NCBI GenBank assembly: GCA_014239855.1
Contig: JAAZXY010000016.1
Span: forward strand, 1-45,398
Source: Acidimicrobiales bacterium
Lineage (GTDB): Bacteria; Actinomycetota; Acidimicrobiia; Acidimicrobiales; MedAcidi-G1
Reading direction: 5' to 3'
DNA: 45,398 nucleotides
Of this stretch, positions 2,259 to 7,803 are shown one piece after another. Each line of letters opens with the position of its first letter. Within the stretch, counting starts at the first letter, position 1. A program made the position numbers and the translations under genes. The notes beneath the pieces are model-generated. The model was not told the origin of the DNA, made no database searches, and saw nothing but the letters and a program-made list of their open reading frames with translations.

Positions 2259-3613
2259 GGCGTGGCTCCCGTTTCCCGGGGATCGGCGCCCGATGGCGGC
2301 GTGGCCAACACGAGGCCCAGAAGGGTCCGCAGTTTCACGTCGGTCTCGGCCAGCTCGCGGTCCGGATCCGAACCGGCCACCACGCCGGCACCCGCGTACA
2401 ACGTCGTGCCCGCGTCGTGCACGAGTCCGGTCCGCAGGGCCACCCGGAACTCGCCGTCGCCCGAGGCGTCCATCCAGCCGACCGGACTGGCGAACCATCC
2501 CCGTTCCATGCCCTCGTGGGCGGCCCGCAGGTCGGCGGCCTGTCCACCGGGATGACCGGCCACCGCCGGGGTGGGATGGAGGGCGCCCACCAGGTCCAGC
2601 AGGCCGACGCCCTCGGGGAGCTCGGCGTCGATGGGGGTGTGGAGATGCTGGATGCCATGGAGTGGCAACAGGGCGGGGTCCCGGGGATGCCGGTCGGCCA
2701 CCCCGAGGCCGTCCAATGCCCGGTCGACGGCTTCGACCACCACGGCGTGCTCGGCGCGTTCCTTGGGGCTGGTCAGGAGGCCCTGGCCGAGGGCGGCGTC
2801 GATGGCCGGGTCGGCGTGGCGGGGGGCGGATCCGGCCAGTGCCGCGGTGTGGAGGTGGCCGGAGTGCACGGCGGCCAGGCGTTCCGGCGTGGCTCCCAGA
2901 AACGTCGTCCCGGTACGGGCCGGTCGCACGGCCAGGGTGGCACACGCCGGGTAGGTGTCTCGGAGGGCGGCCAGCAGGGGAGCGGTGTCGGGCCGGTGGC
3001 CGACGTCGATGGACCGACACGGCACGGCCTTGGTCAGATCCCCCCGCCCGATGGCCGCCAATGCCAGGCGGACCAGTTGCCGGTAGTGCTCGCGGGCGTC
3101 CGGATCGGTATGGGCGGCGGGATCCAGGAACTCGGCCCTGCCGGGAGTCGGCGCATTGTGCAGGGGGGTGGGTCGGTCCTGGTCGTCGATCCGGGTCACC
3201 CAGGTGCGACCGGCGTGGCGTAGGACCTGGACGGCGGGCAGCACGAGGCGACCGGCTCCGAACGGCTGCCATGCAGCAGCGGCCTGCGGCAGGTCGTCGT
3301 CGAAGGCGAAGCCCGCAGCGAGTCTGGGGAGCGGAGCACCCTCAGGGGCGGTCACGTCGAGGGCGTTCCACAGGTCGGTGGCCATCTCGGCGGCGTCGAC
3401 GAATCGTCCGACTCCGGTGGCGTCGACCACGGCCGCCGAGCCGAGACCGACCCACGAGGTGTCGTCGTCGGGGACCTCCCAGAACCACGCTTCGTCGTCG
3501 ACGGGCGCCACGGCCAGCCAGGCCAGGGGGTCGGTGGCCGGCCCGGTGTGCACCTCGACGGTGGTGGCCTGCATCGCCCCGGTCGCCGGCGCGGGGTCGG
3601 CGGTCAACGCCAT
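2255..3613 (-). CDS. menF: Isochorismate synthase (MenF-type chorismate-binding enzyme)
   Basis: 452 residues. The C-terminal half is a chorismate-binding domain: a GATPERL segment, a SPKERAEHAVVVEAV helix, and GALHPTPAVAGHP followed by an ERGWFASPVGW-like region. It would convert chorismate to isochorismate, the first committed step of the menaquinone branch, and feeds the MenD encoded just downstream. Anthranilate or salicylate synthase relatives are possible from domain content alone, but the menD-menH context makes MenF the best reading. The ATG at 3613 overlaps the end of the merR gene by 10 bases; a Met at codon 14 is an alternative start. Confidence 0.92.
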   Translation of the reverse strand: MALTADPAPATGAMQATTVEVHTGPATDPLAWLAVAPVDDEAWFWEVPDDDTSWVGLGSAAVVDATGVGRFVDAAEMATDLWNALDVTAPEGAPLPRLAAGFAFDDDLPQAAAAWQPFGAGRLVLPAVQVLRHAGRTWVTRIDDQDRPTPLHNAPTPGRAEFLDPAAHTDPDAREHYRQLVRLALAAIGRGDLTKAVPCRSIDVGHRPDTAPLLAALRDTYPACATLAVRPARTGTTFLGATPERLAAVHSGHLHTAALAGSAPRHADPAIDAALGQGLLTSPKERAEHAVVVEAVDRALDGLGVADRHPRDPALLPLHGIQHLHTPIDAELPEGVGLLDLVGALHPTPAVAGHPGGQAADLRAAHEGMERGWFASPVGWMDASGDGEFRVALRTGLVHDAGTTLYAGAGVVAGSDPDRELAETDVKLRTLLGLVLATPPSGADPRETGATP

Positions 3614-4401
3614 TGGACGTCCACCTCCAGGCGATCGGTGTCGGCGGTCAGGAGGGCCTCGGCCAGTCCGGTTCCCGTGTCGGTTCCCGCCCGCTGCCGG
3701 GCCCGGGTCACCAGCGTGCGGTGGAAGTGCTGGGCCACCAGACGGGTCACGGCCGGCAGCAGTGAGCGGACCACCTCCACGAGGTCCTGTTCGCCGGTCG
3801 TCCCGTCTCCTGTAGTGCCTTCTCCGTGGTGGATGTGGCACTCGAACAGGTCGATGGCCCGGTCGACCACCTCGTCGACGTTCGCGCCATGGTCGGCGGC
3901 CAGGGCCACCAGTTCGTCGAGTGGGACGCCTGCCGCGCTGATGGCCAGCCCGGCCCGCACCATGGAGACCGCCCCCTCGTCGAACCGGGGCTCGGGGTCG
4001 GTGGTGAGGGGAGCGAGGAGTCCGTTGTCGACCAGGAGGGCGACGAGCCCTTCGGGGACCCCGGCCTGCTCGGCCACCTCGGAGCGAGAGAGGCTTCGAT
4101 CCAGGGCATCGTCGGCCAGGCGGCGAAGTTCGTCCACTGCGCCGATGGTCGACACCCCGGCACCCAGGGCGCCGATCTGGGCCAGGGTGAAACCCTCTTC
4201 GGCCAGGCGTCGGATCTCGGCCAGGCGGGCCACGTGATCGTCGGAGTACAGGGCCCGTCGGCCGCTTCGGAGCGGTGCCGGTAACAGGCCGAGGCGCTGG
4301 TAGTAGCGCACGGTGTCGATGCCCAGCCCGGCGGTCGCTGCCACCTCATCGACGGTCAGGCCGGTCGGGGAGTTCCGGTTCTGCTCATCCACGGCGGCCA
4401 C
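3604..4401 (-). CDS. MerR-family transcriptional regulator heading the men operon
   Basis: 265 residues. The N-terminal winged helix (about 14-85) shows the MerR pattern: TVDEVAATAGLGIDTVRYYQRLGLL, a basic wing with RRALYSDDHVARL, then RRLAEEGFTLAQIGAL. The rest is a helical effector region with no recognised ligand motif. A TAGAAT -10 box lies directly before an ATG at 4407, so that ATG would be outside the transcript. A GTG at 4401 is 6 nt downstream of the -10 and fits a leaderless start, so I chose it. The gene is translationally linked to menF, so it may sense a quinone or redox cue; this is inference. Confidence 0.88.
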   Translation of the reverse strand: MAAVDEQNRNSPTGLTVDEVAATAGLGIDTVRYYQRLGLLPAPLRSGRRALYSDDHVARLAEIRRLAEEGFTLAQIGALGAGVSTIGAVDELRRLADDALDRSLSRSEVAEQAGVPEGLVALLVDNGLLAPLTTDPEPRFDEGAVSMVRAGLAISAAGVPLDELVALAADHGANVDEVVDRAIDLFECHIHHGEGTTGDGTTGEQDLVEVVRSLLPAVTRLVAQHFHRTLVTRARQRAGTDTGTGLAEALLTADTDRLEVDVQWR

Positions 4402-4407
4402 GGCCAT

Positions 4408-4436
4408 ATTCTAGGAGTAATCACTCTCAGTGTCGA
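4408..4436 (-). promoter_or_regulatory. Promoter of merR-menFDH with MerR-type operator in the spacer
   Basis: Reading the minus strand, TCGACA (4431-4436) and TAGAAT (4408-4413) are separated by 17 bp, matching sigma70-type -35 and -10 elements. The spacer holds the imperfect dyad GAGTAATCACTC (4415-4426, arms GAGT/ACTC). MerR proteins characteristically bind between -35 and -10, so autoregulation of the operon is a reasonable inference. Confidence 0.6.
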
Positions 4437-4511
4437 TGCTCGTACCTTCGGATCGGATCTTCCGGTCCGCCGGATCACCGCCAACCGGGTCGTGGATGCC
4501 ACGATGAGCGG

Positions 4512-5474
4512 ATGGGAGCCCGAGCAGAGACCTCCGCGCCGATCGACTACATCGCCCTGACCCGCGATCGTTACGACGCCCTCGGCTACCCCCCGTACCA
4601 GTGGGCGGAGTTGTCGGACACACCGCCCTGGACGCCGCTGGCCCGCCCCCTCGCCGAATCGACGGTTGCCCTGATCGGCTCGGGCGGTGCCTACCGGGAA
4701 GGGCAGACGGCCTTCCACTGGAAGGACGACACCGGCGTCCGGCGGATCCCGTCGGCCGACCCGGCCACCGACATCCGGGTCACCCACTTCGCCTACGACC
4801 TCGAGCCGGCCCGGGAGGACCCGAACATCGTGTTCCCCGTGGACCGGCTGCGCGAGCTGGTCGACGAGGGCGTGATCGGTGGACTGGCCCCCACCGCGCT
4901 GGGGTGCATGGGCGGGATCTACTCGGTCCGACGGGCCACCGAGGAGCTGGCCCCGGCCGTCGTCGCCGAGGTCACGGCCATGGACGTGGACCTGGCCCTG
5001 CTGGTGCCCGTCTGACCGGTCTGCCACCAGACCGTGGGTCTGGTCGCACGGGCGTTGGAAGCCGCTGGGGTGCCGACGCTCTGCCTGACGTCGGCGTACA
5101 GCATCACGGCGTCGGTGAACCCGCCGCGGGCCGCCTTCTCGGACCTGCCGCTGGGCCACACCGTCGGTCGACCCCATGATGCGGAGTTCCAGCGAAACCT
5201 GCTGCGTCGGGCGTTGACCGCGGCGGCCGCCATGGACACCCCGGGAACCATCGCCGCCACCGGGGTGACGTGGGACGGCGACGGCTCCTGGAAGCGTCGG
5301 GCCACGCCCACCGGGATTGAGTCCGGGAAGCCGGTGTCCGGGGAGCCGGTGTCCGGGGAGCCGGTGTCCGATGCTTCGGCGGACGGTGACCGGGGCGATA
5401 CACGCAACGTCCGGGTCGACACCCCGCAGTACCAGTACGAATCCGACCGGCTGGCCGCCGAGTCGGGCACCTGA
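4512..5474 (+). CDS. GrdB/PrdB-family protein with in-frame UGA, probable selenoprotein (Sec168)
   Basis: Translated from ATG 4512, the frame runs 167 codons to TGA 5013-5015 and stays open in the same frame for another 152 codons to TGA 5472-5474. Protein similarity continues across the UGA: the upstream part ends DLALLVPV and the downstream part begins PVCHQTVGLVARALEAAG, giving a redox-like U-P-V-C motif (Sec168, Cys171). This matches the glycine/sarcosine/betaine/D-proline reductase selenoprotein B family, in which Sec or Cys occupies this position. A hairpin suited to a bacterial SECIS follows the UGA. A Ser/Pro/Glu tandem repeat lies near the C-terminus. Substrate is unknown; the partner subunits of true glycine reductase are not nearby, so it may act on another substrate. 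If the organism lacks selA/selB/selD, the gene would instead be a nonsense-mutated or misread copy. Confidence 0.8.
5013..5043 (+). promoter_or_regulatory. UGA codon plus SECIS-like hairpin
   Basis: After the UGA (5013-5015), CCAGACC (5027-5033) and GGTCTGG (5037-5043) form a perfect 7-bp stem with loop GTG (5034-5036). The loop begins 18 nt after the UGA and has G first, both within known bacterial SECIS limits. A competing stem, CGGTCTG (5017-5023) with CAGACCG (5028-5034), excludes the first. Folding is inferred by eye. Confidence 0.6.
5331..5370 (+). repeat. 15-bp tandem repeat inside the probable selenoprotein gene
   Basis: Two exact 15-bp units (5331-5345, 5346-5360) and a third partial unit (5361-5370) encode PVSGE-PVSGE-PVSD. 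The array keeps the frame and lies in a low-complexity stretch between the reductase-like domain and the C-terminus, consistent with replication slippage. Confidence 0.85.
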
Positions 5475-5512: not shown

Positions 5513-6469
5513 ATGTCTGTCGCCGCCGATCTTCAACCCCTGCTCGACCTCATCTCCCAGGGTCGGGACCCGGACGCCCCCATCGATCTTGAGGAACGCC
5601 GGGTGAGCTACCGGGCCATCTGTACCGGTGGCCGACATCTGGCCGCCGAGGTGGCCGAGGTGGTCGACCGGATGATCCCCGGTCCGGAGAGCGATCTGCC
5701 GGTCCGGATCTACCGGGCGGAGGGACTGGGCGACCGCTCCCCCGTGGTGCTCTATCTCCACGGTGGTGGCTGGACGATCGGTGATCTGGAGGGCTACGAC
5801 GAACAGTGCCGGGCCGTGGCCTCAACCAGTGGAGCGGTGGTGGTGGCCCTCGAGTACCGGCTCGCTCCCGAGCACCCGTTCCCGGCGGCCGTCGATGATT
5901 CCTGGGCAGCCCTCTGCTGGGTGTCGGAGCACGCTGGGGAACTCGGGGTCGATTCGGGGCGACTGGTGGTGGCCGGTGACAGCGCCGGGGGCAATCTGAG
6001 TGCGGTGCTGTCGCTACTGGCCCGTGACCGGGGCGGTCCGGCCATCGACCACCAGTTCCTGATCTATCCGGCCACCGATTTCGATTACGACTCCAGACGT
6101 TGGCCGTCGTTGGAGGAGAACGCCGTTGGGTACTTCCTGGAGCTGAGGATGATGCGGTGGTTCGCCGACAACGTCGCCGGGGGTCGGGATCTGAGCACCG
6201 AGCCGCTGGCCGCACCGATCCGTGCCGAGAATCATGCAGGCCTTCCGCCGGCCACCGTGATGGTGGGTGGCTTCGACCCCCTTCGCGACGAGGGTCTGGG
6301 GTATGCCGAGATGCTTCGATCGGCCGGCGTGCCGGTCGAGGTGATCCACCACGAGGAGCAGGTCCACGGGTACTGGATCGTCGCCCCGCTCGTTCCCTCC
6401 TCGGGTGCCGCCCGCCAGATCGACCTGGATGCTCTTCGGGCTGCCATCGAGGCTCTGCCCGTCGGCTAG
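5513..6469 (+). CDS. HSL-family alpha/beta hydrolase (esterase/lipase)
   Basis: 318 residues with the hormone-sensitive-lipase signature: oxyanion HGGGW at 83-87, the nucleophile elbow GDSAGGN with Ser157, a likely Asp in GGFDPLRDEG and a His in EQVHGYW. It should hydrolyse short-chain carboxylic esters in the cytoplasm. The start is ATG 5513, 38 nt after the selenoprotein stop on the same strand, so the two may be co-transcribed. Its stop shares a CTAG tetranucleotide with the stop of the convergent CoA-transferase gene. The substrate cannot be told from sequence. Confidence 0.93.
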   Translation: MSVAADLQPLLDLISQGRDPDAPIDLEERRVSYRAICTGGRHLAAEVAEVVDRMIPGPESDLPVRIYRAEGLGDRSPVVLYLHGGGWTIGDLEGYDEQCRAVASTSGAVVVALEYRLAPEHPFPAAVDDSWAALCWVSEHAGELGVDSGRLVVAGDSAGGNLSAVLSLLARDRGGPAIDHQFLIYPATDFDYDSRRWPSLEENAVGYFLELRMMRWFADNVAGGRDLSTEPLAAPIRAENHAGLPPATVMVGGFDPLRDEGLGYAEMLRSAGVPVEVIHHEEQVHGYWIVAPLVPSSGAARQIDLDALRAAIEALPVG

Positions 6470-7698
6470 TCGCCGGGCTCGGCCACCGCGCCCGACGCCA
6501 CCAGGGCGTCGATCTCGGCGTCGGTGCGGCCCATGGCCGCCAGGACCTCGCGGGTGTGCTGGCCGATGGACGGGGCCGTTGAACGGGCGGCCCACGGTGT
6601 GCCCCGGAAGTCCACCGGCGTGGCGACCATGGTGGTCGACGACACCGCGTCGGGGACGTCGACCAGCGCACCGGAACCGTGGAACGCCGGGTCGGCCAGC
6701 AGATCGTCGGGCGAGTTGATCGGTGCCCAGAAGAAGTCCGGTTCGGTGGCGAACACCTCGGTCCACTCGTCGAGCGTCCGGGTGGCGAAGATCTCGTCCA
6801 GCATGCCGATGAGTGCCGGCGCATTGGCTGCCCGCTCCCGAGGCCGCGCGAAGCGCTCGTCGTCGAGCCATTCGGGATGGCCGACCGCCCGGGCCAGCGG
6901 AGGCCAGTGCCGTTCGCCCTCCAGTCCGACGATCCAGAATCGGCGACCGCAGCCTGCGGTGTAGTTGTTCATGGCCGGGTTGCCCATCGACGTGCGTTCG
7001 CCGATCTCCAGGGTGGCCCCCCACATGAGCAGCAGGTTCAGGTCGAAGCTGATCGTGTAGGCGCCCTGGCGCATGAGGGACGTCTCGACCAGCTGGCCCT
7101 GACCGGTGCGTTCCCTGTCGAACAGGGCGGCCGACACCGCGGCGGCGGCCGCCAGGCCCGTCGAATGGTCGCCCATCCCGCCCCGTTGGAACGGCGGGTC
7201 ACCCCCCGGTGGGGTCAGGAGGCCCGCCACGCCGGACCGGGCCCAGAAGGCGCCGATGTCATAGGCCGCCCGGTCGGCGTCGGGCCCCTCGGAGCCATAG
7301 CCGGTGATCTGGCAGTACACCAGGCGCTCGAAGCGGTCGGCGATCGACGCATGGTCCAGGCCGAGGCGCTGCAGGGCGCCGATCCGCAGGTTGGTCACGA
7401 ACACGTCGGCCTCGGCCAGCAGGTCCATGGCGATGGCCAGGCCATCGTCGGTGCCGAGGTCCACGGCAATGCCCTTCTTGGACCGGTTGTCCATCTCGAA
7501 CACCGGGTTGGTGGGCATGTCGCCACCCAGCATCCACTGGAACATCCGGCACGGGTCGCCCGACGGGGGCTCGATCTTGACGACATCAGCCCCCCAGTCG
7601 GCCAGGATTCCCGAGGCGGCCGGGCCGGCCACCCACACGCCGAGCTCGACGACCTTCACGCCCCGCATGGGGCCGGTCGCGGTGGTGGTCTCGGTCAT
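6466..7698 (-). CDS. CaiB/BaiF (family III) CoA-transferase
   Basis: 410 residues from ATG 7698; a GTG at 7719 is an alternative adding 7 residues. The N-terminus MRGVKVVELGVWVAGPAASGILADWGADVVKIEPP is the typical family III nucleotide-type fold start, and the Asp in the AAYDIGAFWARSG region matches the catalytic aspartate of formyl-CoA transferase relatives. These enzymes move CoA between acyl-CoA and a free carboxylic acid. A TAGGTT box at 7747-7752 (minus) is a candidate -10, which would leave a short leader. The acid substrate is unknown; neighbours suggest carboxylic acid or steroid/fatty acid catabolism (inference). Confidence 0.93.
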   Translation of the reverse strand: MTETTTATGPMRGVKVVELGVWVAGPAASGILADWGADVVKIEPPSGDPCRMFQWMLGGDMPTNPVFEMDNRSKKGIAVDLGTDDGLAIAMDLLAEADVFVTNLRIGALQRLGLDHASIADRFERLVYCQITGYGSEGPDADRAAYDIGAFWARSGVAGLLTPPGGDPPFQRGGMGDHSTGLAAAAAVSAALFDRERTGQGQLVETSLMRQGAYTISFDLNLLLMWGATLEIGERTSMGNPAMNNYTAGCGRRFWIVGLEGERHWPPLARAVGHPEWLDDERFARPRERAANAPALIGMLDEIFATRTLDEWTEVFATEPDFFWAPINSPDDLLADPAFHGSGALVDVPDAVSSTTMVATPVDFRGTPWAARSTAPSIGQHTREVLAAMGRTDAEIDALVASGAVAEPGD

Positions 7699-7803
7699 GG
7701 CTGGCGCCCCCGTTGTCACTGGCGGCCCGGAGTCGAGCCCGGGGGCAACCTAGGCCGATGAGATCGGTCGGTCCCATGCGGACCTGACGGGTACCGTCGG
7801 CCG

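Follow-up and report, generated by a model that had tools for sequence, protein, structure and literature searches.

The window, i.e. the complete stretch of 45,398 nucleotides that was analysed, contains at positions 4512-5474 of the forward strand a reading frame with a single internal TGA, which is flanked by genes for a divergent MerR-type regulator, an alpha/beta hydrolase and a CoA-transferase (Table 1). Translation with TGA read as selenocysteine (Sec, U) yields 320 residues including U168, and a second TGA at positions 5472-5474 is the terminal stop. This agrees with an earlier note on this DNA, according to which the frame is open on both sides of one UGA. As many long spurious open reading frames occur in the GC-rich window, an open frame by itself is weak evidence. 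The note had further claimed that family similarity continues across the UGA, and this was confirmed by profile searches. The model TIGR04483 (PrdB) matches residues 36-247 across the UGA with 146.6 bits (7.7e-43); the two halves are also matched separately, with 92.1 bits (3.6e-26) before and 38 bits (1.2e-9) after the UGA. The Pfam model GRDB is matched with 33.7 bits (3.2e-8) and thus above its cut-off of 22; this match covers the C-terminal part of the model alone. The proposed assignment to a GrdB/PrdB-like family is therefore sustained, and the U-x-x-C redox motif of the note was found as UPVC, formed by Sec168 and Cys171.

Table 1. Features of the selenoprotein locus in the window.
Feature	Position	Strand	Remarks
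Divergent MerR-type regulator gene	3604..4407	-	Pfam MerR_1 4.3e-19; adjoins selenoprotein gene in 19/19 family neighbourhoods (all fairly close relatives)
Operator-like inverted repeat GAGT-N4-ACTC, divergent promoter region	4415..4441	.	predicted from sequence
Selenoprotein gene, PrdB-like (Pfam GRDB family), Sec168	4512..5474	+	320 residues
UGA codon for Sec168	5013..5015	+	TGA in 30/30 family loci read; Cys in 8/21 named-genome loci
Cys171 codon, second half of UPVC motif	5022..5024	+	column at least 90% conserved in 30-row alignment; Asp in L079
Bacterial SECIS hairpin, 8-bp stem, GUG loop 5034-5036	5026..5044	+	geometry, covariation, codon constraint
Alpha/beta hydrolase (Abhydrolase_3) gene	5513..6469	+	38 bp downstream; may be co-transcribed; missing in some relatives
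CoA-transferase family III gene	6466..7719	-	neighbour; link uncertain

Thirty loci of the family group to which the window belongs were read (L001 and L019-L047), and in all of them the in-frame TGA lies within the motif VPxUPVCHQ. In a scan of named genomes, 13 of 21 loci contain TGA at the position of Sec168 and eight contain a Cys codon. Twelve of the TGA loci are titled Acidimicrobiales, Acidimicrobiaceae or Acidimicrobiia, and one belongs to Candidatus Entotheonella; the Cys loci comprise one of Desulfobacteraceae, six titled betaproteobacterial or Proteobacteria, and one of Rhizobiaceae. The 30 family loci and the 21 named-genome loci probably overlap, as several loci have identical motif regions. 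The earlier note had suggested inspecting homologues for Sec or Cys at position 168 and for termination at the UGA: both residues occur, and none of the 30 family loci read ends there. A search of relatives gave a match in 42 of 61 genomes (the own genome plus 60 others), including all 37 of the own family group; some of these matches are fragments only, and oddities were a second TGA in G020, a TAA in G026, and a short fragment without a stop in G036 (residues 7-64). When 246 genomes were drawn evenly from the phylum, 41 had a match, mostly with one TGA; several contained more stops and four contained none.

The motif varies among more distant homologues. In one Sec homologue (L079), it reads UPLDHQ, with an Asp in place of the second Cys of UxxC. 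Two loci of one other actinobacterial family (L095, 1501-2178; L102, 1501-2181) have a UGA at both motif positions (UPIUHQ) and represent UxxU PrdB-like proteins; in a table of PMC13188914, PrdB is listed with a single Sec only. Furthermore, many relatives (among them L080, L081, L082 and L084) possess a second Sec-containing PrdB-like paralogue with the motif UPLCTR; no such paralogue was detected in the genome of the window (83% complete).

Downstream of the UGA, a hairpin was identified whose GUG loop is separated from this codon by 18 nt. The bSECIS model, as given in PMC13188914, specifies a loop of 3-9 nt, a stem of 4-16 bp, a G in the first two loop positions and a distance of 16-37 nt from the UGA; with its 8-bp stem, its loop and its spacing, the hairpin at 5026-5044 agrees with all of these values. 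Both the spacing and the bacterial SECIS geometry had been described correctly in the earlier note. Rfam contains no named family at this site, and the hairpin was therefore judged on geometry and covariation. Folded as a single sequence, the hairpin does not stand out (z -0.77; equalled or bettered by 39 of 200 shuffles), and it was not seen in the single-sequence folds of several distant homologues, for example L077, L081, L092, L095 and L102. In 40 hand-picked Sec homologues, 90.3% of the stem cells are paired, compared to 76.1% after shuffling. Two-sided changes occur in six of the eight stem pairs (3.8 after shuffling; 5 of 500 shuffles as high), and the stem covariation is 0.411 compared to 0.143, a value as high being reached by none of 500 shuffles. 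In slid registers, pairing falls to 19-47%. The weaker pairs are the outermost (unpaired in 7 of 40 rows) and the innermost one (14 of 40). In the same register, 55 of 80 cells are paired in Cys homologues and 17 of 32 in four true PrdB genes. Within the family, the stem codons are under synonymous constraint, their mean top-codon frequency being 0.81 (6 codons) compared to 0.56 (22 codons).

The window's own genome is a MAG of 2.35 Mb that is 83% complete. The earlier note had proposed to search it for selA, selB, selC and selD, and all four are present. The tRNA-Sec with the anticodon TCA (UCA in the RNA) scored 67.5 bits, SelB was found over its cut-off (265.6 bits) with selA adjoining selB, and SelD was found over its cut-off with one TGA (Sec-type selD). 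A second match of the tRNA-Sec model over the cut-off (48.6 bits) was rejected, as ARAGORN classified it as tRNA-Ser. On the evidence of these comparisons, the frame at 4512-5474 is a genuine selenoprotein gene whose UGA at 5013-5015 is read as Sec168; the conserved TGA, the Cys homologues, the covariation of the SECIS stem and the machinery in the genome uphold the central claim of the earlier note. COX1 was over its cut-off in the own genome, the one genome tested for it. The host therefore probably respires oxygen, in line with the aerobic setting that had been claimed.

Of 30 family loci, 26 have the pattern GAG-N6-CTC in the gap between the MerR and the selenoprotein genes, compared to a mean of 1.7 and a maximum of 5 in shuffles. 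With up to three mismatches allowed, the own genome has a single site for the longer repeat pattern, and a search of this genome for a wider regulon yielded the local repeat only. Accordingly, the regulator seems to be a dedicated one that acts locally. As judged from these patterns, the selenoprotein gene is probably controlled by a dedicated MerR regulator via a putative GAGT-N4-ACTC operator; some of the conservation of the neighbourhood and of the repeat may simply reflect synteny between closely related genomes. The idea that the regulator senses redox state through a Cys was rejected, because the Cys of the window's MerR protein is not conserved and no Cys is common to all 18 aligned MerR rows.

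Of the 19 family neighbourhoods, 15 have an esterase gene downstream; L073 and L074 lack it, and in L051 and L055 the contig breaks off early. No Stickland cluster was found among the neighbours of the window gene, as the earlier note had stated for a glycine-reductase cluster. In seven of ten Cys loci (L064-L070), a glutaredoxin gene directly follows the Cys homologue; next after it comes a gene for a family III CoA-transferase in six of them (L064-L069), which in L070 is located some 3 kb further on. One of these loci, L065, belongs to Lacisediminimonas profundi, a cultured environmental bacterium. In L063, another Cys locus, such a CoA-transferase gene lies just upstream and a nitroreductase gene downstream. 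The Cys loci L063, L111 and L112 have no adjacent glutaredoxin gene, and L111 and L112 have no family III CoA-transferase gene there either. In the loci of the window family, no glutaredoxin gene of that type was found next to the selenoprotein gene. CoA-transferases are common genes, and the link to them is therefore weak. Other homologues have genes for a rhodanese, an F420-type quinone reductase, a metallo-hydrolase or an enoyl-CoA hydratase as neighbours. Going by the annotated genes, the neighbourhood points to redox and acyl metabolism and not to the fermentation of amino acids.

In a tree of 53 rows, the window family (support 100/99) and true PrdB (100/100) form separate clades. The window family groups most closely (17 rows, 100/99) with homologues of other acidimicrobial families, the Entotheonella protein (L062) and the Cys protein L063. 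Addition of the Proteobacterial Cys clade, the next to branch, gives a group of 26 rows (97/96) with true PrdB outside. With 146.6 bits, the window protein does not reach the equivalog cut-off of 300 of TIGR04483, compared to 378.5 for a plasmid-borne true PrdB (L114) that has prdA and prdC annotated beside it. Window protein and PrdB are homologous over a core of about 210 residues and contain the Sec of UxxC at the same position. However, the motif is UGTC in the four annotated PrdB proteins read, the window protein has extra N- and C-terminal parts, and neither prdA, prdC nor prdD is among the neighbours of its gene. In the plasmid prdB locus of Peptoclostridium acidaminophilum (L113, 3935-4648), no prdA is annotated within 4 kb, the gene table being incomplete there.

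PrdA (TIGR04480) was over its cut-off in none of the 61 genomes, i.e. the own one (83% complete) and 60 relatives. This absence is weakened by the fact that the PrdA and PF09338 searches gave no match in any of the 14 control genomes either; however, both models do detect two annotated PrdA proteins well above the cut-off, with 79 and 94 bits for PF09338 and 977 and 973 bits for TIGR04480. The pyruvoyl-subunit family PF09338 occurs in four of the 61 genomes and in two of the 37 of the own family group. The same four genomes (G011, G012, G045, G057; loci L088 and L118 are listed with them) also carry GrdA and, by this gene content, look like true glycine reductase carriers, so that such a reductase seems to occur in this order alongside relatives of the window protein. 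The GrdE and GrdA partners (PF09338 and PF04723) were found neither in 57 of the 61 genomes nor in the own genome, for which absences alone prove little at 83% completeness. No pyruvoyl partner was found in 35 of the 37 family genomes, whereas the query is matched in all 37; the protein therefore seems to work without a pyruvoyl subunit, the lack of which also argues against D-proline as substrate. Compared to GrdB (selenoprotein B of glycine, sarcosine and betaine reductase), to which the match with Pfam GRDB indicates a distant homology, the window protein is shorter, matches the C-terminal part of the model only, and lacks detectable GrdE and GrdA in its genome. Taken together, the genome comparisons support an orphan PrdB-like clade with a motif of its own that works without the PrdA/GrdE pyruvoyl subunit.

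The predicted structure of the protein (pLDDT 90.8, pTM 0.89) places Sec168 between a strand (161-165) and a helix (169-184). A 15-bp tandem repeat with 3.3 copies (5321-5370) encodes GEPVS-type repeats in the C-terminal tail, a stretch that is absent from the other rows of the homologue alignment and is modelled with low confidence (residues 273-293). With Foldseek, no PDB entry was matched at E<=0.001, and the four PDB sequences returned by a profile search (best E 0.024) do not, by their names, include a relative; thus, no solved relative is available to guide a mechanism. The N-terminus of a helix favours a selenolate. It is plausible to assume that Sec168, inserted by the genome's own selA, selB, selC and selD products with the help of the hairpin, would attack an electrophilic small substrate as a selenolate at the helix N-terminus of the model. 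By analogy, the target would probably be a carbon with a leaving group, or else the sulfur of an oxidised thiol. The selenenyl intermediate may then be resolved by Cys171, a glutaredoxin- or mycoredoxin-like protein may re-reduce the enzyme, and the divergent MerR regulator would probably set expression through GAGT-N4-ACTC. A precedent for an attack on bonds other than C-N is FarB of the fluoroacetate reductase of Synergistota, a GrdB-type Sec protein that is proposed to attack the C-F bond of fluoroacetate (PMC10838667). In contrast to the window protein, FarB has the partner FarE and an anaerobic host, so that it is an analogy only for what such a Sec can do. Altogether, we assign a probability of about 0.6 to the reading that the protein is a real selenoprotein and a PrdB-like orphan Sec reductase without a pyruvoyl subunit, from a marine acidimicrobial lineage that has an oxygen-respiration gene, with the proposed nucleophilic mechanism and MerR-set expression.

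Other explanations were weighed against this reading. That the UGA acts as a normal stop or stems from faulty assembly, resulting in a protein of 167 residues, has next to no probability. The hairpin of the single sequence, which 39 of 200 shuffles equalled, would be compatible with it; however, the TGA is found in 30 of 30 family loci, similarity goes on past it, distant homologues have a Cys at its position, the SECIS stem covaries, and the genome contains the complete Sec machinery. The occurrence of the same TGA in many separate genomes also argues against a sequence error. It is also very improbable that the protein is a D-proline reductase PrdB, which would reduce proline in a Stickland-type reaction together with PrdA. 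TIGR04483 is indeed the best named model, the identity to plasmid proteins annotated as prdB is 31-34%, and the marine literature files such sequences as PrdB (PMC1088965, PMC2398784). Against these points stand a score of about half the cut-off, the UPVC motif, the absence of PrdA hits over the cut-off from all 61 genomes, and the position of the clade apart from true PrdB.

An unlikely alternative of another kind is a general thiol-disulfide or peroxide-handling protein that cycles between Sec and Cys like thioredoxin-like selenoproteins and is not a substrate-specific reductase. The UxxC motif at the helix N-terminus of the predicted model and the glutaredoxin neighbours of Cys homologues are consistent with such a role, and MerR regulators are frequent responders to stress. 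However, no thioredoxin-fold protein is among the best 50 of 529 weak PDB matches, several homologues have CoA-transferase, nitroreductase and hydrolase genes nearby, which look metabolic, and no Cys is shared by all aligned MerR rows. Moreover, L079 retains Sec without a second Cys, which tells against a simple Sec-Cys cycle.

Selenoproteins of this type have been encountered before. UxxC PrdB selenoproteins were counted 42 times in Sargasso Sea data in 2005, where they were the third commonest family with D-proline reduction as the stated role (PMC1088965), and 235 PrdB sequences were found in 38 samples of the GOS data in 2008 (PMC2398784); neither of these passages reports a test of D-proline reduction. 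Given such abundance of UxxC Sec proteins in marine samples, the word "new" in the earlier note does not hold. As judged from the descriptions and not from compared sequences, the Sargasso and GOS sets probably include the window clade. The protein is thus not a member of a new selenoprotein family; added here are the evidence for an orphan clade, its own motif, the MerR neighbour, and the glutaredoxin neighbour in most Proteobacterial Cys loci seen. In a limited literature collection, no paper was found on acidimicrobial selenoproteins or on a "PrdB-like" group, and none linking the selenoprotein B family, glycine and glutaredoxin.

Tentatively, and with chances clearly below even, the PrdB-like selenoproteins found in Actinomycetota, both marine and other, may constitute a separate selenoenzyme class that occurs without a pyruvoyl subunit in oxygen respirers and cleaves the bond between carbon and a leaving group in a carboxylic or acyl substrate. 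If so, the metagenome papers would have misnamed their abundant marine "proline reductase". Should the marine PrdB-like clade be without PrdA, a selenoprotein family that is among the commonest in ocean surveys may catalyse a reaction yet to be discovered, and some of the selenium demand of the ocean would lack an explanation. For the window gene itself, a selenoprotein is confirmed whose UGA would make gene callers split the gene in two, and its function label is put in doubt.

Two minor observations concern Cys homologues. In a record labelled Rhizobiaceae (L070, 6001-6927), the homologue contains two in-frame TAA codons and may be a decayed gene, a sequence error or a case of an odd code. 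In Roseomonas haemaphysalidis (L112, 5968-8353), the Cys homologue adjoins a SelO gene.
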